Shown here: in pieces, positions 5,090 to 29,917 of the stretch
Layout of the letters: each line of letters begins with the position of its first letter
How positions within the stretch are numbered: the stretch's first letter is position 1
Virus record (IMG/VR): IMGVR_UViG_3300032323_000325
Span: 1 to 36,387 of that record
Direction: 5' to 3' (one strand)
Source: a virus
Length of the DNA: 36,387 nt
The notes under the pieces: model-generated
The model's database searches: none
The model's input: only the letters and a program-made list of their open reading frames with translations
What the model was told of the DNA's origin: nothing
Position numbers and translations under genes: made by a program

Positions 5090-6433
5090 ATGTCAGAAAA
5101 AATCATGGAAAAACTTGACGCGATTGAGGCACAAAATGTTGCTGAAATTGCAAAAGTAAACGAAGCGGTTGACGCAAAAGTTGCCGCAATTGAAGAAAAA
5201 CTAAACAACGAATTTGCTGAAAAAGTTGCGGCTTTAGAAGCTAAAGTTGCAGATATTAAATCACCTTCAATCATCAAACTTGAAAAAACAGTTTCAGGCG
5301 ATGTGAACAAACGCGTTCGTGAAGCGTTATCAACATTTTACAAAGGCAACAGCCGTGTTGAAAAAGAATTTGCTTTATTTGCTGACGAAGGCGAACACCA
5401 AGCATTCTTGAAAGAGGCATCAGCATTGACTGGTTCAGGCGCAGGTATCGGCGGTCGCACAGCTTACGACCCGGTGTTTGTTGCACTACGTTTGGCAAAC
5501 CCGTTGCGTGGCGCAGGCCGTAACGTAACAACTGACGGTTCAACATATCAATTTAGAAGCAAGGTTGGCAACGCAGGTGCGGCTTGGGGCTATCCAGTAA
5601 ACAACAACACTTCAGCAACTACTGAAAACACAAACATTTGGCAATTAACATTGCAAGACTTGAACGTTCAGTTCCCAGTTCGTACAGCGGCACTTGACGA
5701 TATTGACGGTCTTGAATCAAACCTTGTTTCAGACATGTTGGTTGAATTCAGCCAAGCTGAAGCGTTATCAATGGTTCAAAACGATGACCAAGGTGCAACA
5801 ACACTTCCATACGGCGGTTCAAACGGCTTGCGCGGTTTAAATCAATATCCGGGCGTAAATGCAACTTACACTGGCGGCACAACTTCAGTTGCGGCATTCG
5901 GTTCAAGTGGCACTGGTTCATCAAGCGGTTTGCATTCAATTGCAACATACGACCAATTGACAACAAACGGTGACGCATTGGCAAACAACGTAACATATAA
6001 AGACGTTGTAAACTTCATTTACGCATTGCCACAACAATACTGGACTGAATCAGCGAAATTCATGATTAGCCCATTAATGCTTGCCGCAATTCGTGGCTTG
6101 ACAGACAGCCAAGGCCGCCCAATTTACGTTGACGGTTTAGCACGCAATGACGGTATTGTTGGCACATTGCTTGGCTTTGATGTGGTTGTGAATAAATACC
6201 TTGACGTTCCATCAATGGATACAGCGGCAGGCACAGACGATTTATTCCCAATGTATTTTGGTGACTGGCAACGTGGTTTTGCAATCGTTGATCGTATGAA
6301 CATGGTGTTGCGTCGTTACGACCAAACATTACCGGGTTCAATCACTTTCTACGGTGAAAAACGTTTGGCATCAAGCATTGTTGATCCAAATGCAATTGTA
6401 CGTTACCGTTCAACTGCAACTGTTACCAAGTAA
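5090..6433 (+). CDS. Major capsid protein 1 (HK97 fold, with scaffold domain)
   Basis: A 447-residue protein. Residues 1-60 form an Ala/Glu/Lys-rich coiled coil, like the delta (scaffold) domain cut off by the HK97 protease. The shell domain starts about residue 110 (SALTGSGAGIGGRTAYDPVF) and ends with the LPGSITFYGEKRLASSIVDPNAIV strand region of HK97-type capsids. The protease gene lies just upstream. The ribosome site is AAAGGATAAATC before the ATG. It is clearly paralogous to the next gene, which lacks the coiled coil. Confidence 0.95.
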   Translation: MSEKIMEKLDAIEAQNVAEIAKVNEAVDAKVAAIEEKLNNEFAEKVAALEAKVADIKSPSIIKLEKTVSGDVNKRVREALSTFYKGNSRVEKEFALFADEGEHQAFLKEASALTGSGAGIGGRTAYDPVFVALRLANPLRGAGRNVTTDGSTYQFRSKVGNAGAAWGYPVNNNTSATTENTNIWQLTLQDLNVQFPVRTAALDDIDGLESNLVSDMLVEFSQAEALSMVQNDDQGATTLPYGGSNGLRGLNQYPGVNATYTGGTTSVAAFGSSGTGSSSGLHSIATYDQLTTNGDALANNVTYKDVVNFIYALPQQYWTESAKFMISPLMLAAIRGLTDSQGRPIYVDGLARNDGIVGTLLGFDVVVNKYLDVPSMDTAAGTDDLFPMYFGDWQRGFAIVDRMNMVLRRYDQTLPGSITFYGEKRLASSIVDPNAIVRYRSTATVTK

Positions 6434-6489: not shown

Positions 6490-7536
6490 ATGAAAACCCA
6501 AGAAATTTTAAAAGGCATTAAGGAAGCGTTGATTGACGGTAAATCAGTGGTCAATTTTTCCGAAAAAGTCGATTCAAACGAGGCATCAGCATTAACAGGC
6601 AGTGGCCTTGATGTTGGTGGTCGCACTTATTTTGATGATGCGTTTGCGGCATTGCGTTATGCAAACCCATTCCGTCAAGGTTCACGCCAAATCATTGGCA
6701 AAGGTTCAGCCGCACAATTCGTGGCAAAAACAGGTAACGCAACAAGCGCAACAAACCCATTTGGTTACATTGTTGACGCAAATAGTGGTTCACCTGATAT
6801 TTCAACAGCATTTTGGCAATTGCCAATGCGTGTTATTTCAGCACAACTGCCAATTCGTAGCGCAGTATTATCAGACATCAACAATATTGAATCAGCAGTC
6901 GTTAATGATTTAATGTTGGAATTTTCAGCCATCGAAGCATCATCAATGGCATTAAACGTTGACCAATCAGGTTCAACAACAACAACTTTAGGTGGCACAA
7001 GCGGCTTGCGTGGTTTAGTAAACTACGGCACAAGCACAAGCGCGGCCGCATACGGCACAAGCGGCACAGCCATCACAAACGGCTTGCATACAATCTTAAA
7101 AGAAGAATTTAGCGCATCAGCAATTGGATATGATGACATTGTGAACGCGGCATCATTGTTGCCAGCACAATACTGGTCACTTCCCGGCACTGCATGGCAC
7201 ATTCATCCAACATTGCTTGCACAAATCCGCAAATTAAAAGGTTCAACTGGCGGCGCACCAATGTTTGTTGAAGTAGGTGACGAAGACGGTGGCGCGGGCG
7301 CATTCTTGTTTGGTTTCCCAGTTATTCCAAACCCATATTTAGCCGCCCCTGCCGCTGGTAAGATTTCAGCAGTGTTGGCAAATTGGGACAGGTTCATCAC
7401 TATCGTTGACGGTGAAGAAATGACCATTCAACGTTTTGACCAAACACAGCCCGGCACAGTAACGCTTTATGCTGAAAAACGCATGGCATCAACTGTTCGT
7501 GATCCATTTGCAGGCGTGTTTTTAGTTGGGGCTTAA
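6490..7536 (+). CDS. Second HK97-fold major capsid-like protein (paralogue)
   Basis: A 348-residue protein that aligns by eye with capsid 1 over the whole shell domain: SALTGSGLDVGGRTYFDDAF against SALTGSGAGIGGRTAYDPVF, LRGLVNYG against LRGLNQYP, and QPGTVTLYAEKRMASTVRDP against LPGSITFYGEKRLASSIVDP. Only about 35 residues precede the shell domain, so the coiled-coil scaffold domain is missing. It may be a minor capsid component such as a vertex protein, an alternative shell protein, or a decoration derived by duplication. Ribosome site TTTTAGGAAAATAAACC. The reading frame is intact, which argues against a pseudogene. Confidence 0.9.
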   Translation: MKTQEILKGIKEALIDGKSVVNFSEKVDSNEASALTGSGLDVGGRTYFDDAFAALRYANPFRQGSRQIIGKGSAAQFVAKTGNATSATNPFGYIVDANSGSPDISTAFWQLPMRVISAQLPIRSAVLSDINNIESAVVNDLMLEFSAIEASSMALNVDQSGSTTTTLGGTSGLRGLVNYGTSTSAAAYGTSGTAITNGLHTILKEEFSASAIGYDDIVNAASLLPAQYWSLPGTAWHIHPTLLAQIRKLKGSTGGAPMFVEVGDEDGGAGAFLFGFPVIPNPYLAAPAAGKISAVLANWDRFITIVDGEEMTIQRFDQTQPGTVTLYAEKRMASTVRDPFAGVFLVGA

Positions 7537-24658: not shown

Positions 24659-25819
24659 ATGATTGATGTAAGTTTAAAACAGTATGCAACTGAAAGACAG
24701 TTGCAGTACATTAACGCAATCAATGAACATGGAAGTTACAGAAAAGCCGCGACCGCATTGAATTGTGGCAAAGGTTCAATTCAGAAAGCCGTTGAATTGG
24801 TCAAACGCAAAGCGGCAAAACAAGGGTATGCCCCTGAACATGGAATGATTCACGCCGTTCCCGAACCGTTTATTGTCAAAGGCCATTCGACACTTTACGA
24901 TAAAGACGGCAACACAAAGTTGCAATGGGTAAAGACAACCGTTGAAGACACCAAAATTCAACAAATGATGTTAGAAGCTATTGAAGCGTTAAAAGAAGAA
25001 ATACCGCGTGTCAATCCAATGTCAGCCCCGCCGCTTGGCAATCACAACCTTTTAAACTGCTATGTCATAACCGATTATCATTTGGGCATGTTGGCATGGA
25101 GTGAAGAAACTAGAGGCGGTGATTGGGATATTGACATTGCCCAAGAATTAATTATCAAGTGGTTTGCACAAGCCATTCAACAATCACCCGATGCAGACAC
25201 AGCCGTTTTTGCACAACTATCAGATTTCTTGCACTTTGATGGCATGGATGCCGTCACGCCAGCATCAAAACATTTGCTTGATGTTGACACTAGGTTTGCC
25301 AAATTAGTTCGTTCAGCAATCAGGGTGTTGCGAACAGTGATTGATATGTTGCTGGCCAAGCATCAAAAGGTGCATGTCATTATGGCAGACGCAAATCACG
25401 ATCCAGTGTCACAAATATGGTTGCGCGAATGGTTCAGCGTGTTGTATGAGAATGAACCGCGTATCACAGTGGATAAATCGCCAAACCCTTATAATGCGTT
25501 TGAATTTGGCAAGACCGCATTGTTTTTCCATCATGGCCATAAACGCAAGGTGACAAACGTCAGTGAAGTATTTGCAGGCCAGTTCCGCGAAATGTTTGGC
25601 CGCACAAAATATGCTTATGCACACACAGGCCATTTGCATTCGATTGATGTTAAAGAAAACAACTTGATGATTGTAGAACAGCATCGAACGCTTGCCCCTG
25701 CGGATGCGTATGCCGCACGCGGCGGTTGGTTGTCAGGTCGTGATGCCAAAGTGATTACATATCATATCAATTTTGGTGAAGTCAGCAGATTAACCATTAA
25801 TTCGGATATGCTGAAATAG
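24659..25819 (+). CDS. HTH plus metallophosphoesterase-like protein
   Basis: A 386-residue protein. An N-terminal helix-turn-helix (QLQYINAINEHGSYRKAATALNCGKGSIQKAVELV) precedes a calcineurin-type phosphoesterase core with the usual motif order: ITDYHLGM (D-x-H), AQLSDFLHFDG, MADANHDPVSQ (variant of GNHD/E), FFHHGH and AHTGHLH. The metal ligands appear kept. Proteins of this combined build are widespread in phages next to the lysis or structural block; the substrate (nucleic acid or nucleotide) is unknown. Ribosome site AAAGGATAAGAC. Confidence 0.85.
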   Translation: MIDVSLKQYATERQLQYINAINEHGSYRKAATALNCGKGSIQKAVELVKRKAAKQGYAPEHGMIHAVPEPFIVKGHSTLYDKDGNTKLQWVKTTVEDTKIQQMMLEAIEALKEEIPRVNPMSAPPLGNHNLLNCYVITDYHLGMLAWSEETRGGDWDIDIAQELIIKWFAQAIQQSPDADTAVFAQLSDFLHFDGMDAVTPASKHLLDVDTRFAKLVRSAIRVLRTVIDMLLAKHQKVHVIMADANHDPVSQIWLREWFSVLYENEPRITVDKSPNPYNAFEFGKTALFFHHGHKRKVTNVSEVFAGQFREMFGRTKYAYAHTGHLHSIDVKENNLMIVEQHRTLAPADAYAARGGWLSGRDAKVITYHINFGEVSRLTINSDMLK

Positions 25820-25868
25820 TTTAATTTTTTGCCTGCAAATTAACTTATGGTTTATAAATCAGGCAAAA

Positions 25869-25881
25869 TGTAAACTTTACA
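25869..25881. repeat. Palindrome TGTAAA-C-TTTACA
   Basis: A 13-bp perfect dyad with one central base. A relative with the same half-sites but a 6-nt spacer lies at 26264-26281, so the two bracket the pqqA island. Such half-sites could bind a dimeric regulator. No protein is assigned. Confidence 0.4.
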
Positions 25882-25922
25882 ATACAACTGCAAAGTCTTT
25901 ACAAAAAATGATTTTATACAGA

Positions 25923-26027
25923 ATGCGGCGGTTAAATAATAAAAACTTATGGGATGGCCGTTATGTCAAAGTTCGCCGTTCAGATAAGAACAAGCGCAAA
26001 TATCTAAAAATTAGACATCAATCATGA
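25923..26027 (+). CDS. Possible 34-residue basic peptide
   Basis: A short ORF rich in Arg and Lys (MRRLNNKNLWDGRYVKVRRS at the start). There is no convincing ribosome site, and nothing in it is recognised. It lies in the otherwise non-coding 5' part of the pqqA island. It could be a real small protein or chance; apart from it and the dyads I see nothing else between 25820 and 26040. Confidence 0.25.
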   Translation: MRRLNNKNLWDGRYVKVRRSDKNKRKYLKIRHQS

Positions 26028-26040
26028 TTTTCACTATTGT

Positions 26041-26087
26041 TTGCGTGGAATATTAGGCAGATTATTATATGCAAGCAATTTTGCTTG
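26041..26087 (+). promoter_or_regulatory. Candidate pqqA promoter with dyad at the start site
   Basis: TTGCGT at 26041-26046 is 16 nt from TATTAT at 26063-26068. CAAGCAA at 26072-26078 and TTGCTTG at 26081-26087 form a 16-bp dyad located where transcription would begin, so it could be an operator or a 5' hairpin. AAGGG at 26097-26101 then gives a good ribosome site 8 nt before the pqqA ATG. Promoter boxes are inferred by eye. Confidence 0.45.
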
Positions 26088-26109
26088 ATATTTATTAAGG
26101 GCTAACATC

Positions 26110-26181
26110 ATGTGGACTAAACCAGCGGCAACAGAAATGCGTTTTGGCTTTGAAGTTACAATGTATGTAATGAACAAGTAA
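26110..26181 (+). CDS. pqqA: PqqA, ribosomal peptide precursor of the cofactor PQQ
   Basis: A 23-codon gene. The peptide starts MWTKPA, continues with [14 protein letters not shown] and has Glu15 and Tyr19 in the E-V-T-M-Y core. In PqqA of known PQQ producers (for example the 23-residue Klebsiella peptide) the same Glu15 and Tyr19 are cross-linked by the radical-SAM enzyme PqqE with its chaperone PqqD, then released and converted to PQQ by the remaining Pqq enzymes. Length, the MW.KPA start and the G.EVT.Y motif all match. The gene stands alone: no pqqB, C, D or E is in the window, so the peptide would feed host enzymes. It has a ribosome site (AAGGG) and a candidate promoter. PQQ is the cofactor of methanol dehydrogenases, suggesting a methylotrophic host. 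Confidence 0.93.
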
Positions 26182-26187
26182 TTCAAC

Positions 26188-26259
26188 AGGATTCCAAATA
26201 TAACGCCAAGCAGGAAACTTTCTTTATAACAAAGGTAATAATCAAGCATTTGGAATCCT
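26188..26259. repeat. 12-bp inverted repeat downstream of pqqA
   Basis: AGGATTCCAAAT at 26188-26199 and ATTTGGAATCCT at 26248-26259 are perfect reverse complements separated by 48 nt. The first arm starts 7 nt after the pqqA stop. There is no T-run after the second arm, so it is not a normal terminator. It could fold into an RNA stem protecting the pqqA transcript 3' end, or mark the edges of an acquired segment. Confidence 0.6.
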
Positions 26260-26263
26260 ATGA

Positions 26264-26290: not shown

Positions 26291-26319
26291 AAAAAAATAG
26301 GGGGCGTTTTAAGCCCCCT
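26291..26319 (-). terminator. Intrinsic terminator of the leftward operon
   Basis: AGGGGGC at 26299-26305 and GCCCCCT at 26313-26319 form a perfect 7-bp GC-rich stem with a 7-nt loop. On the minus strand it is followed by a run of seven T (A run at 26291-26297), which is an ideal rho-independent terminator for the leftward genes. It would also block that transcription from running antisense through pqqA. Between it and the last gene (26320-26366) I see nothing. Confidence 0.85.
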
Positions 26320-26366: not shown

Positions 26367-26510
26367 TTAATTATCAGTAATTATGTCAAACAAGTCAAGA
26401 ATCCAAAGCCATATAATTGCAATTGGAATCCATGCCCAACAAGTTAATATCAACAACCAAACTTTGTGTTTAGTTTTCAATGTCGTTTTCCGTATAACCA
26501 ACATTCCCAT
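26367..26510 (-). CDS. Small membrane protein at the operon end
   Basis: About 47 residues from the ATG at 26510, with one strong hydrophobic helix VWLLILTCWAWIPIAIIWLWILDLF and a short acidic end. The start is uncertain: an ATG at 26504 or a TTG at 26480 (with GGAAAA upstream) would also keep the helix, and an in-frame ATG at 26555 lies further inside the preceding gene. It overlaps the 3' end of the upstream gene. Family not recognised. Confidence 0.55.
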   Translation of the reverse strand: MGMLVIRKTTLKTKHKVWLLILTCWAWIPIAIIWLWILDLFDIITDN

Positions 26511-26694
26511 TTTGGGCGATAGCGCGGTCGCGTGATGTTGTTTGCCAGTCTTCACTGTATTCAGGCAATGGCGGCGGAATATACTTTTCTTTTTTCTTTA
26601 CGCCAAAAATTCTATCAAAGGCCGCTTCACCTTCAGGACTTAAAACCCCGCGTGTTTGTATTGCATCGCCAGTAATGTCATTTGTTGCCGCCAT
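26470..26694 (-). CDS. Hypothetical protein, 74 residues
   Basis: A polar 74-residue protein (GVLSPEGEAAFDRIFGVKKKEKYIPPPLPEYSEDW in the middle) with no membrane segment. It starts in an overlap with the stop of the 59-residue membrane protein upstream, with an AAAGGGTAAC-type ribosome site. Tight coupling places it in the leftward operon. I recognise no family. Confidence 0.65.
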   Translation of the reverse strand: MAATNDITGDAIQTRGVLSPEGEAAFDRIFGVKKKEKYIPPPLPEYSEDWQTTSRDRAIAQNGNVGYTENDIEN

Positions 26695-26857
26695 TTGTTA
26701 CCCTTTCAACTGAATCAATAAATGCCGTTAATAACCCCAACGGGATTGTCATAAAAACATACCACCAATTGTGTTCAGACATAATTAGCCAAGCAATGCC
26801 AAGCTGGCCAATCAAATCAATAATTGTATATTGTTTTTTTGCTAAATATTTAATCAT
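26678..26857 (-). CDS. 59-residue membrane protein
   Basis: MIKYLAKKQYTIIDLIGQLG is followed by hydrophobic stretches IAWLIMSEH and WWYVFMTIPLGLLTAFI, suggesting one or two membrane passes. It is joined to its neighbours by a TAATG overlap upstream (stop of the winged-helix gene) and a 17-nt overlap downstream. The full junction fit supports a real gene despite the small size. Role unknown. Confidence 0.6.
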   Translation of the reverse strand: MIKYLAKKQYTIIDLIGQLGIAWLIMSEHNWWYVFMTIPLGLLTAFIDSVERVTNGGNK

Positions 26858-27309
26858 TATGCAAATCCATCATAAAGTGCAAAGGATGAACCAATTGACG
26901 CGCCCATTGCTTTTCGTTTAGGTCGTTGCCAAGCATAGTCACTGCCGGGGCGATCAAGGTTGCGAACAATACGGCCAAACGGTGACGGCACTTCACGATG
27001 TCGGTTATGTGCAACATCGGATATGTTCGTCATGCGTTGCACTAATTCCTTTTCAATTTGCGCGTCAGTGCGCGGAATGAACGGCTTGTTAGTGGAACGG
27101 TAAAATTTCATGTTGCCTTTTTGCATTACTTTCACATCAACAACATGCCCTTCATCCATTAAGAACCGCAAATACCATTTAACAGCACTTGCATTTTCGC
27201 CAGTAATTCTTGAAAGTTCCATTTGCGTCAGCACTTGTTTCAATAAAATATTGTAAACGTTCAAACGCTTTTCATCGCATATTTTATAACGCCGATATTT
27301 TGGGTTCAT
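26857..27309 (-). CDS. Winged-helix DNA-binding protein
   Basis: A 150-residue basic protein. Residues about 15-55 (KRLNVYNILLKQVLTQMELSRITGENASAVKWYLRFLMDEGHVVDV) form a winged helix-turn-helix of the MarR/ArsR-like shape: helix, helix, recognition helix, wing. The C-terminal half is basic and probably disordered (RHREVPSPFGRIVRNLDRPG). It could regulate the early region or assist replication. Ribosome site AAAGGAAACGAC. It begins 72 nt after the SSB-like gene, in a gap with nothing else seen. Confidence 0.65.
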   Translation of the reverse strand: MNPKYRRYKICDEKRLNVYNILLKQVLTQMELSRITGENASAVKWYLRFLMDEGHVVDVKVMQKGNMKFYRSTNKPFIPRTDAQIEKELVQRMTNISDVAHNRHREVPSPFGRIVRNLDRPGSDYAWQRPKRKAMGASIGSSFALYDGFA

Positions 27310-27381
27310 GTCGTTTCCTTTCTTATATGGATGGGCTTACTTTCACACCCCCTGCATGATTTCAGCCCAATTTTTTACACG

Positions 27382-27636
27382 CTAGAACGGGATATTTTCG
27401 TCAGGCGCATCATTTAACCCAGCATTGCTTGGTTGATTGTTTGCAGTTTTTTCATCAGGTTTAAACATTTGAAACCAACCGTCAAAGTTTACTGGCATTG
27501 ATTCAATTATCAAAGCAATCCCAGCATCGTTTTTGGCTTCAATAGCAACGCCGCAACGATGCCAGCGTGTTTTCATTTCACCCGCTTTGTTTTTGTATTC
27601 ACCGGCTTTCGCCATCACATTAAATAGAACCGCCAT
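27382..27636 (-). CDS. Small putative ssDNA-binding protein with SSB-like tip
   Basis: An 84-residue protein. The N-terminal strands (LFNVMAKAGEYKNKAGEMKTRWHRCGVAIEA) recall the first strands of an OB fold, and the chain ends in APDENIPF, very like the acidic C-terminal tip (D-D-I-P-F) by which bacterial SSB recruits partner proteins. Together with exonuclease and ERF genes upstream it fits a phage recombination set. It is much shorter than usual SSB (about 170), so a partial OB fold or a different fold is possible. Confidence 0.6.
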   Translation of the reverse strand: MAVLFNVMAKAGEYKNKAGEMKTRWHRCGVAIEAKNDAGIALIIESMPVNFDGWFQMFKPDEKTANNQPSNAGLNDAPDENIPF

Positions 27637-28252
27637 TTTTAATACCTTTCAATTGTTGTGTCAACGTTTCCGTTTCCGTTAAAAATTTAATTACTTCACT
27701 TTCTAATTCCGCAATATACGCATCATCACGTTCAACGCGATAAATATATAGTGCTAAATTATCACCAACGTCAGGACAATAGGACACAAAATCAACCCAT
27801 TTGCGGCCAGTGCAAGCCAATTGCCATTGCATTTGATGATAATACTTTGCAGGCGATTTGCCTGATAAGACTGTTTCAACATGATTAGCGGCCGTTGGGC
27901 ATTTAATTTCAATCAGCCCTTCACTACCAACCATTCCGTCAGGTGATGCCCCAGCCATTTTAATTGTTGGATGATTAACAAATGCAATTTCAGTGACAAA
28001 CACACCTGACAATGCTTCATATAATGAACGGGCAACTGGTTCAAGCATTGTGCCGCGTTCCATGTGATGATTGGTAAACCCTTCATCCTTTGTGCCTGTT
28101 AAGCGTTCACAAACCAATTGAATGCGGTAGTTGCGGCGGGTAGCGGCTTCACCTGATTTGCCAGCGGCCATAACATCGGCAACACGGCTGGCGGTTACTT
28201 TACCCAGTCGCATGGCAAACCATTCAGGCGTGCCTTGTTCAATGTTTTCCAT
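27620..28252 (-). CDS. YqaJ/lambda-type exonuclease
   Basis: A 210-residue alkaline-exonuclease-like protein. GTPEWFAMRLGKVTASRVADVMA is the typical YqaJ start, and the PD-(D/E)XK core is seen in MERGTMLEPVARSLYE, MAGASPDGMVG and LIEIKCPTAANH (Asp, then Glu-x-Lys), followed by YYHQMQWQLACTGRKWVDFVSY. It resects DNA ends so that the annealing protein can act. ATG at 28252 has ribosome site AAGGTGA; an in-frame ATG at 28315 lies within the small upstream ORF. Confidence 0.92.
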   Translation of the reverse strand: MENIEQGTPEWFAMRLGKVTASRVADVMAAGKSGEAATRRNYRIQLVCERLTGTKDEGFTNHHMERGTMLEPVARSLYEALSGVFVTEIAFVNHPTIKMAGASPDGMVGSEGLIEIKCPTAANHVETVLSGKSPAKYYHQMQWQLACTGRKWVDFVSYCPDVGDNLALYIYRVERDDAYIAELESEVIKFLTETETLTQQLKGIKNGGSI

Positions 28253-28391
28253 CAAATTCACCTTTTTTAACTGGATTTGCAAGGCGATATTTGTTGCCCA
28301 AATATGCAATGGCATCCATTAATTTTTTATCGTAAATTTTTTTGTGTTTTGCATCAGGATTTTTCATGCCATAAAGTGAAATGATTGTCAT
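28239..28391 (-). CDS. 50-residue basic protein between ERF and exonuclease
   Basis: An intact ORF, MTIISLYGMKNPDAKHKKIY at the start, rich in Lys and with GNKYRLANPVKKGEF near the end. It fills the gap between the two recombination genes exactly, begins 1 nt after the ERF stop with a GAGGG ribosome site, and overlaps the exonuclease start by 14 nt. Family unknown. It could be an accessory factor of the recombination pair. Confidence 0.6.
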   Translation of the reverse strand: MTIISLYGMKNPDAKHKKIYDKKLMDAIAYLGNKYRLANPVKKGEFDGKH

Positions 28392-28392
28392 T

Positions 28393-28965
28393 TTAATTTC
28401 CCTCAAAAAGTGATTTCATTTGGTCTTTAGCGGTGACAACGGCTTTAGTTGCCGCAACATCGCCTTTGCATAACACAATGACAGTTTGATATGCCGTCAT
28501 TAATTCAGCCATTGTCTTGCAGTTTGTTATTTGCTTGACCAATGTTTCCGTAGAAATACGGTTGCCTTCATCGCGATTGCTTGCCCTATCGCCATCATCA
28601 TCATCAGCGTATAAGCCACAAATAGCAGAAAGAGAATAGCGGCGTAAATAGGTAAGTGCCGAACCGAAACCCTGCGGGTCTTGTTTAGATAATGGGCAAG
28701 TCGCGGTGTCTTCAATCCATTCCCCCGATGTGTGTAATAAGCGTGTTGTTAGGTGCAAGCGGCCATCATCACTTGGCGTTGGCGTTTGCATGAATATAAT
28801 GTTGTTGTCGTTTAATTGCGTTTTGACCGCATCAATCACGCTGGATAGATCAGCGTAGTTATTTTTTAAGTGCGGGTTTTTTGCGTTTTCTACAGCAAAC
28901 TTAATTGATTTTTGCGCCAATAGCAAATCAGGTGCAATTTTTACAAGCGTTTCGGATGTTTTCAT
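28393..28965 (-). CDS. ERF-family single-strand annealing protein
   Basis: A 190-residue recombinase of the ERF type. Diagnostic segments are LLLAQKSIKFAVENAKNPHLKNNYADLSSVIDAV and GFGSALTYLRRYSLSAICGLYADDDDGDRA, the family's conserved core. It anneals complementary strands after resection. The C-terminal part is helical and ends MKSLFEGN. It is transcribed with the exonuclease and SSB-like genes, forming a complete two-component recombination system. Confidence 0.92.
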   Translation of the reverse strand: MKTSETLVKIAPDLLLAQKSIKFAVENAKNPHLKNNYADLSSVIDAVKTQLNDNNIIFMQTPTPSDDGRLHLTTRLLHTSGEWIEDTATCPLSKQDPQGFGSALTYLRRYSLSAICGLYADDDDGDRASNRDEGNRISTETLVKQITNCKTMAELMTAYQTVIVLCKGDVAATKAVVTAKDQMKSLFEGN

Positions 28966-28971
28966 GTTGTC

Positions 28972-29250
28972 TTATTCCTGTTCTAGTTTAATTTTGCCTA
29001 TGTATATTCCATCTTCTTGAATAGATGTTCTTAATAAATAATTATGTGGGGCTACTGTTCTGTTCATATACACATACAAATACTGTGGCTTTTTAGGCTG
29101 TGGTTTAATGCGGTATTCGTGTCGTTCAGCAAATGTAGGTGCAACTTTTTTATTAATTTTGTTCCATTCATCTTCGCCGTGATACTTACATTCAATCTCT
29201 GCACCATCAGCCCATGCTTTTATTTCTTTATGCCATTTATGTTGTGCCAT
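28972..29250 (-). CDS. Conserved phage hypothetical protein, 92 residues
   Basis: It opens with KWHKEIKAWADGAEIECKY and continues with EWNKINKKVAPTFAERHEYRIKPQPKKP, a pattern seen in many phage proteins in which a short 'I.aWadGa.ie.r....W........w....yRIkp' unit is repeated or isolated. Function unknown. It follows the 28-residue membrane peptide by 1 nt. Confidence 0.65.
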   Translation of the reverse strand: MAQHKWHKEIKAWADGAEIECKYHGEDEWNKINKKVAPTFAERHEYRIKPQPKKPQYLYVYMNRTVAPHNYLLRTSIQEDGIYIGKIKLEQE

Positions 29251-29251
29251 A

Positions 29252-29338
29252 TTAATACCACCATTTAATTAAAGAATATGCAAAAAATGCAAATGCAAGC
29301 GTTGTAAATATGTATAAAGCCCAGTCGTGGTTGTTCAT
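29252..29338 (-). CDS. 28-residue single-pass membrane peptide
   Basis: MNNHDWALYIFTTLAFAFFA and four to eight more residues form a single membrane helix. A GAGGG ribosome site lies 8 nt before the ATG, the start is 2 nt after the previous stop and the stop is 1 nt before the next ATG. Such exact filling of a gap supports expression. Role unknown; small early membrane peptides can act in superinfection exclusion or lysis control. Confidence 0.5.
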   Translation of the reverse strand: MNNHDWALYIFTTLAFAFFAYSLIKWWY

Positions 29339-29339
29339 G

Positions 29340-29561
29340 TTATTTGCCCTCGATGCTAAAGATTTCGTTTTCGATGTCTTCAATAATAGAAGATGAAAGA
29401 ATTGACCAAATGTTGGTTGTGTCACCCGTCAGTTCAACTGAACGGATGTCAATGTCATAAAGTGTTGGTGAATCGCCAGTGCCATAAGCGTCACGGCATT
29501 TTTCGCAGGTGTAGTAAACATCAAGGTCGATTCCGTTGATGGTGATGGTTTGAACAGACAT
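29340..29561 (-). CDS. Hypothetical protein, 73 residues
   Basis: Start ATG at 29561 follows AAAGGAAACAAT; an earlier in-frame ATG at 29615 lies inside the upstream gene. The protein has a CEKC pair (YYTCEKCRDAYG) that might bind metal as part of a partial site, then an acidic C-terminal half. I recognise no family. Confidence 0.65.
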   Translation of the reverse strand: MSVQTITINGIDLDVYYTCEKCRDAYGTGDSPTLYDIDIRSVELTGDTTNIWSILSSSIIEDIENEIFSIEGK

Positions 29562-29604
29562 ATTGTTTCCTTTCGTTTCCAGTAAGGGGCTTGCGCCCCA
29601 TTTG

Positions 29605-29841
29605 TTATTCATCATTCATTACATAATTAAATAAAACAAATTTTGCGCGATTAATAGTTTGGCGCGCTTGTTCATTCATGTCAAATTCAATTTCTTGTTG
29701 TGCATCAGACATTAGACTTGCGGCGCACATAACATAATCTTTAATTCCAATTAGACTTTTACGCAATTGTTCTTCAGAACAACCGTAGCATTGTAAATCC
29801 CATTCTAATTGTTCGTTTGTTTGTGTTGTAGTTGTTGTCAT
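29605..29841 (-). CDS. First gene of the leftward operon, 78 residues
   Basis: A soluble, helical, acidic protein from the ATG at 29841 (AAAAGGAAAC upstream), beginning MTTTTTQTNEQLEWDLQCYG. An ATG at 29910 in frame would start before the promoter -10 box and is less likely. As the first early gene it might be a host-takeover or regulatory factor, but no motif shows this. Confidence 0.65.
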   Translation of the reverse strand: MTTTTTQTNEQLEWDLQCYGCSEEQLRKSLIGIKDYVMCAASLMSDAQQEIEFDMNEQARQTINRAKFVLFNYVMNDE

Positions 29842-29888
29842 TTTAGTTTCCTTTTCGTTTCCGTTAATATGCGAAGTGCATGAGTAAG

Positions 29889-29917
29889 AATATACAGATA
29901 AATTATACATTGTGCAA
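29889..29917 (-). promoter_or_regulatory. Leftward early promoter
   Basis: On the minus strand TTGCAC (29917-29912) is 17 nt from TATATT (29894-29889), a good sigma-70 match and spacing. It would drive the recombination operon. It lies in the only divergent intergenic region of the window. Confidence 0.6.

Follow-up and report, generated by a model that had tools for sequence, protein, structure and literature searches.

The window, the whole stretch of 36,387 nucleotides of viral DNA analyzed here, contains an intact pqqA gene (26110..26181, + strand) whose ATG lies at 26110 and whose stop codon ends at 26181. The gene encodes a 23-aa PQQ precursor peptide, identified by family models and by conservation, in which the residues that PqqE cross-links in PqqA (Glu15 and Tyr19) are present with the E-x3-Y spacing. 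The peptide scores about twice the curated cut-off in both PqqA models: 42.4 bits (E 6.4e-11; cut-off 21.1 bits) with Pfam PF08042, and 40.4 bits (E 1.8e-10; cut-off 20 bits) with the equivalog model NCBIfam TIGR02107. Since both scores exceed the cut-offs, this is not a chance ORF. None of the solved structures matches the peptide. The original prediction had placed a PqqA family member with its own ribosome site at this position, between phage genes; the coordinates, the length, the Glu15/Tyr19 motif and the phage setting were all correct on re-reading, and the two models bear out the family assignment.

The ribosome site is a Shine-Dalgarno sequence, TTAAGGG (26095..26101, + strand), whose AAGGG lies 8 nt before the ATG. 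Upstream, a conserved 5' leader of about 86 nt (26024..26109, + strand), shared with many other phage pqqA copies, includes a short hairpin (CAAGCAA-TT-TTGCTTG, 26072-26087); 26 viral and 6 host pqqA copies have a similar hairpin upstream. The leader is probably a promoter plus 5' UTR, and a search upstream of the window gene gave no sigma-70 promoter above the chance level. An intrinsic terminator on the - strand (26299..26319) faces the leftward genes, and its + strand stem, which has no strong T run, could serve as an end for transcripts running through pqqA. An antisense ORF that overlaps pqqA (26034-26249) was rejected as a gene; its similarity to phage P19250A is confined to the 28 aa of the pqqA overlap.

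The carrier phage and its host

The genes of the window include those for terminase, portal, head protease, tape measure, tail fibre, endolysin, spanin and recombination exonucleases, together with two tandem capsid paralogues. The capsid-family genes (5090-6433 and 6490-7536, + strand, both phrog_10) are 42% identical over 333 aa; the same pair is found in P19250A, which makes this an old duplication within the phage group. The upstream neighbour of pqqA is a DNA-repair-exonuclease/metallophosphoesterase gene (phrog_704; 24659..25819, + strand). On the other side lies a leftward recombination/early module (26367..29910, - strand) with a YqaJ/RecE-like exonuclease and an Erf-like annealing protein, and pqqA is positioned at the junction of this module with the rightward late genes.

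The large terminase subunit (TerL) and its P19250A counterpart share 79% identity, whereas the next best match reaches 35%, and the two genomes are syntenic over most of their length. Host contamination of the contig is ruled out by this synteny with a phage isolate. By genome comparison the window is a P19250A-like phage, and because of the TerL identity and the synteny its host is almost certainly a Methylophilaceae bacterium, likely a relative of "Ca. Methylopumilus", in keeping with the methylotroph host predicted originally; these hosts are freshwater bacteria that consume methanol. P19250A infects M. planktonicus LD28 (PMC7678222).

The closest relative found (L374) has an exonuclease 93% identical to that of the window, and carries the same pqqA 93 nt after the exonuclease gene, in 163 bp of 92% identical DNA; the expected presence of the gene in close phage relatives is thereby confirmed. 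Two stretches around the gene differ between these genomes. The roughly 200 bp that separate the pqqA leader from the exonuclease gene (25820-26023), in which a 39-codon ORF lies (25908-26027), are missing in L374 and partly present in L378. Right after pqqA, the window has a perfect 12-bp inverted repeat (AGGATTCCAAAT / ATTTGGAATCCT, 26188-26262) within about 100 bp that are absent from L374, and this repeat was found in no other fetched locus.

Distribution, placement and conservation of phage pqqA

A tblastn search of a phage collection found pqqA in nine isolates infecting Methylophilales or Methylophilaceae and in one circular metagenomic phage; two weak matches in Acinetobacter "phages" (E 0.01) are left out of the isolate count. 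The isolates span several lineages: small phages of the Venkman and P19250A types, MEP301, MEP401/402 (Zobellviridae), and four T4-like Melnitz phages (Kyanoviridae). The gene had been predicted to be easily missed by annotation, and in none of the nine (0/9) is it annotated as PqqA, which shows that very short metabolic genes escape standard annotation. In Melnitz and MW202481 a hypothetical ORF is annotated on the opposite strand where pqqA lies; the annotated ORFs that run antisense over the real gene in MZ577097 (76100-76195) and MW202481 (2067-2195) are probably annotation errors. Plasmid matches are weaker and come mostly from Rahnella, Paraburkholderia, Caballeronia and Acinetobacter, some of them in megaplasmids or chromosome-size records.

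At least 273 IMG/VR viral contigs hold a full pqqA copy, as collected by scans with DNA patterns in which several residues are fixed (at least 120 contigs in each scan); these are hit lists without a denominator, and the counts do not translate into a rate of carriage. An SD-like motif occurs at positions -20..-4 in 272 of the 273 copies. More divergent viral PqqA types (L025, L004, L018, L028, L079) may come from phages of other PQQ-making hosts.

The gene stands alone, as had been claimed from the sequence. None of pqqB, pqqC, pqqD and pqqE was found in the window. With profile models, pqqD and above-cut-off pqqE were absent from 51 viral records (the window included), and pqqB and pqqC from 34. 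The pqqC model detects its gene in four Methylophilaceae genomes, which makes its null result in the viral records meaningful. A PQQ-dependent alcohol dehydrogenase gene accompanies pqqA in 1 of the 51 records (G131, the 72-kb contig of L043; 34049-35731), as in a Lake Baikal virus.

Placement varies among relatives. Often pqqA follows the exonuclease gene, 88-490 nt downstream; in other relatives it is found elsewhere and inverted, or is absent from the fetched DNA, and in P19250A it occupies the same junction as in the window in inverted orientation. Occurrence beside the exonuclease gene is patchy and many relatives lack it there, so the group as a whole does not require pqqA. Both neighbours lie on the opposite strand in 67 of 200 viral copies. 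An intrinsic terminator lies within 130 nt after pqqA in 101 of 246 viral copies, compared with 1 in shuffled sequence. The terminators, the antisense placement, the patchiness and the shared leader, whose promoter is putative, fit a gene of host origin that is stand-alone and movable.

In the search that left codons 15 and 19 open, both Glu15 and Tyr19 are kept in 121 of the 121 viral matches listed. The Glu and the Tyr are likewise present in copies located by way of the adjacent exonuclease gene instead of a pattern, even in the divergent type MWTKPSATELRFGMEITAYVMNR. There are 231 distinct viral and isolate pqqA DNA versions, of which 74 encode the exact window peptide. Over these sequences pS is 0.61 and pN 0.10, a ratio of 0.17 that is biased downward because the patterns fix several other residues; most conserved residues besides 15 and 19 belonged to the search patterns, and the Glu15/Tyr19 result is free of this bias. 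The window gene shows the following features of an auxiliary metabolic gene: a location within a phage genome with phage genes on either side, a close host counterpart (an identical peptide is encoded in many Methylophilaceae genomes, where the original prediction had proposed to look), and purifying selection in phages, the ratio being read with its downward bias. As judged from these comparisons, phage pqqA is real and selectively maintained.

Proposed role in infected methylotrophs

All 120 Methylophilaceae genomes sampled contain pqqA, with a median of 4 copies and up to 12, and full-score pqqE is usually present once per genome. This combination of multiple pqqA copies with usually one pqqE was noted earlier in the family (PMC4109929). 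In a wider sample of the order, the median is 2 copies among the other genomes with any pqqA. Phages and hosts share their commonest peptide, which accounts for 125 of the 207 host copies that were examined. PqqA availability is cited in PMC11317620 as rate-determining for PQQ in Methylovorus MP688; in M. extorquens AM1, pqqA is reported as non-essential in work that left out the orphan copies (PMC11317620). A family of PqqA-like RiPPs is co-expressed with defence systems in hosts, and these are not phage genes (PMC11118758).

We consider it probable (about 0.75) that the real, maintained phage pqqA supplies extra substrate to the PQQ enzymes of the host, and so would sustain PQQ-dependent methanol dehydrogenase (MDH); expression, processing, the rise in PQQ and the benefit are all putative steps. 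In an infected member of the Methylophilaceae, probably one related to "Ca. Methylopumilus", the peptide would be expressed by the phage as a stand-alone unit. Host PqqD and PqqE would bind this peptide and join Glu15 to Tyr19 by a cross-link; the other enzymes of the host pathway would then convert the cross-linked peptide into PQQ. The added PQQ would keep MDH loaded, and methanol oxidation could go on while host synthesis is shut down. Because one PqqA is consumed per PQQ, extra gene dosage would be useful for the substrate and not for the enzymes, and this one-for-one consumption would explain why phages carry pqqA alone. The invariant Glu15/Tyr19 pair, the purifying selection, and the multiple host copies of pqqA alone strengthen the case for substrate supply. 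Against a benefit to the phage are the several pqqA copies with which the host is equipped beforehand and the reported non-essentiality of pqqA in M. extorquens AM1. Both MDH and PQQ persist for a long time in the periplasm, and for this reason a benefit within one lytic cycle is only putative.

Capture of a short, multicopy host gene by chance, with no role in infection, is an unlikely explanation of the same distribution. Capture would be easy from hosts with 3-12 pqqA copies, many of them stand-alone, and the patchiness beside the exonuclease gene and the different orientation in the window and P19250A fit a passenger. Passengers decay, however, and the low pN/pS (0.17), the 74 synonymous versions of a single peptide, the constancy of Glu15 and Tyr19 in every unbiased match listed, the SD-like motif before nearly all viral copies, and the recurrence of the gene in unrelated phage lineages all argue for upkeep. 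It is highly doubtful that the peptide is a decoy or regulator which engages PqqD/PqqE or a protease and is not itself a PQQ precursor. Phages commonly encode small proteins that inhibit enzymes of the host, and the peptide is indeed carried without the PQQ enzymes; yet a decoy would not need the intact cross-linking pair, which is never lost, nor does a blocking role suit a commonest phage peptide identical to that of the hosts. It is very improbable that the extra PQQ serves a different end from methanol oxidation, for instance the handling of lanthanides (a link between orphan pqqA and the lanthanide response is suggested in PMC11317620) or the exclusion of superinfecting phages whose receptor is a PQQ importer (in E. 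coli, PQQ prevents infection by a phage using PqqU; PMC12124388), since the same receptor logic would be needed in several unrelated lineages whose receptors are hypothetical, and the PQQ-dependent alcohol dehydrogenase in one pqqA phage record, as in the Baikal virus (PMC7678222), points to methanol oxidation.

The substrate-supply reading can be extended, with the balance tipping slightly in its favor, to lone pqqA as a general feature of Methylophilaceae phages: unrelated lineages would have gained the gene repeatedly because a ribosomally made, stoichiometrically consumed precursor limits cofactor synthesis in the host, and the auxiliary metabolic gene would supply not an enzyme but a substrate. 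Enzymes or their subunits are the products of most auxiliary metabolic genes, whereas phage pqqA encodes a lone precursor peptide, which suggests that for methylotroph phages cofactor synthesis has a bottleneck at the substrate. Such a bottleneck would match the unexplained multicopy pqqA of the hosts. The idea is directly testable, as nine sequenced isolates carry the gene and cultured hosts are named in their records.

Comparison with known systems

Phage pqqA and its reading as a PQQ boost are already known from Lake Baikal, where a 2020 study described virus-borne pqqA alongside methanol dehydrogenase, with the same interpretation (PMC7678222). The Baikal virus population VP_266 resembles the window in its phage-borne PqqA gene, its predicted Methylophilaceae host and the proposed PQQ boost for methanol dehydrogenase; it differs in being grouped with T4-like viruses and in also encoding methanol dehydrogenase, whereas the P19250A-like window has pqqA alone. 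Viruses of reservoir sediment likewise have pqqA listed among their auxiliary metabolic genes, but pqqD and pqqE are also reported there and the genes are read as serving phosphate solubilisation (PMC13188868). The open-access full texts on the isolates Melnitz (PMC9004378), MEP401/402 (PMC10580990) and Venkman (PMC8163748) do not mention phage pqqA.

P19250A (KX815270) is like the window in synteny, in TerL and in an unannotated pqqA at the same late/leftward junction; its pqqA differs in orientation and its peptide reads differently. The stand-alone pqqA copies of Methylophilaceae often encode the identical peptide, lie apart from pqqBCDE and are followed by a terminator, and some have the upstream hairpin. 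In contrast to the window gene, these copies are chromosomal, at about four per genome beside the full pathway. Relative to these systems, what is new here is the breadth of phage pqqA across phage lineages, the conservation of its cross-linked pair, and its missed annotation in isolates.
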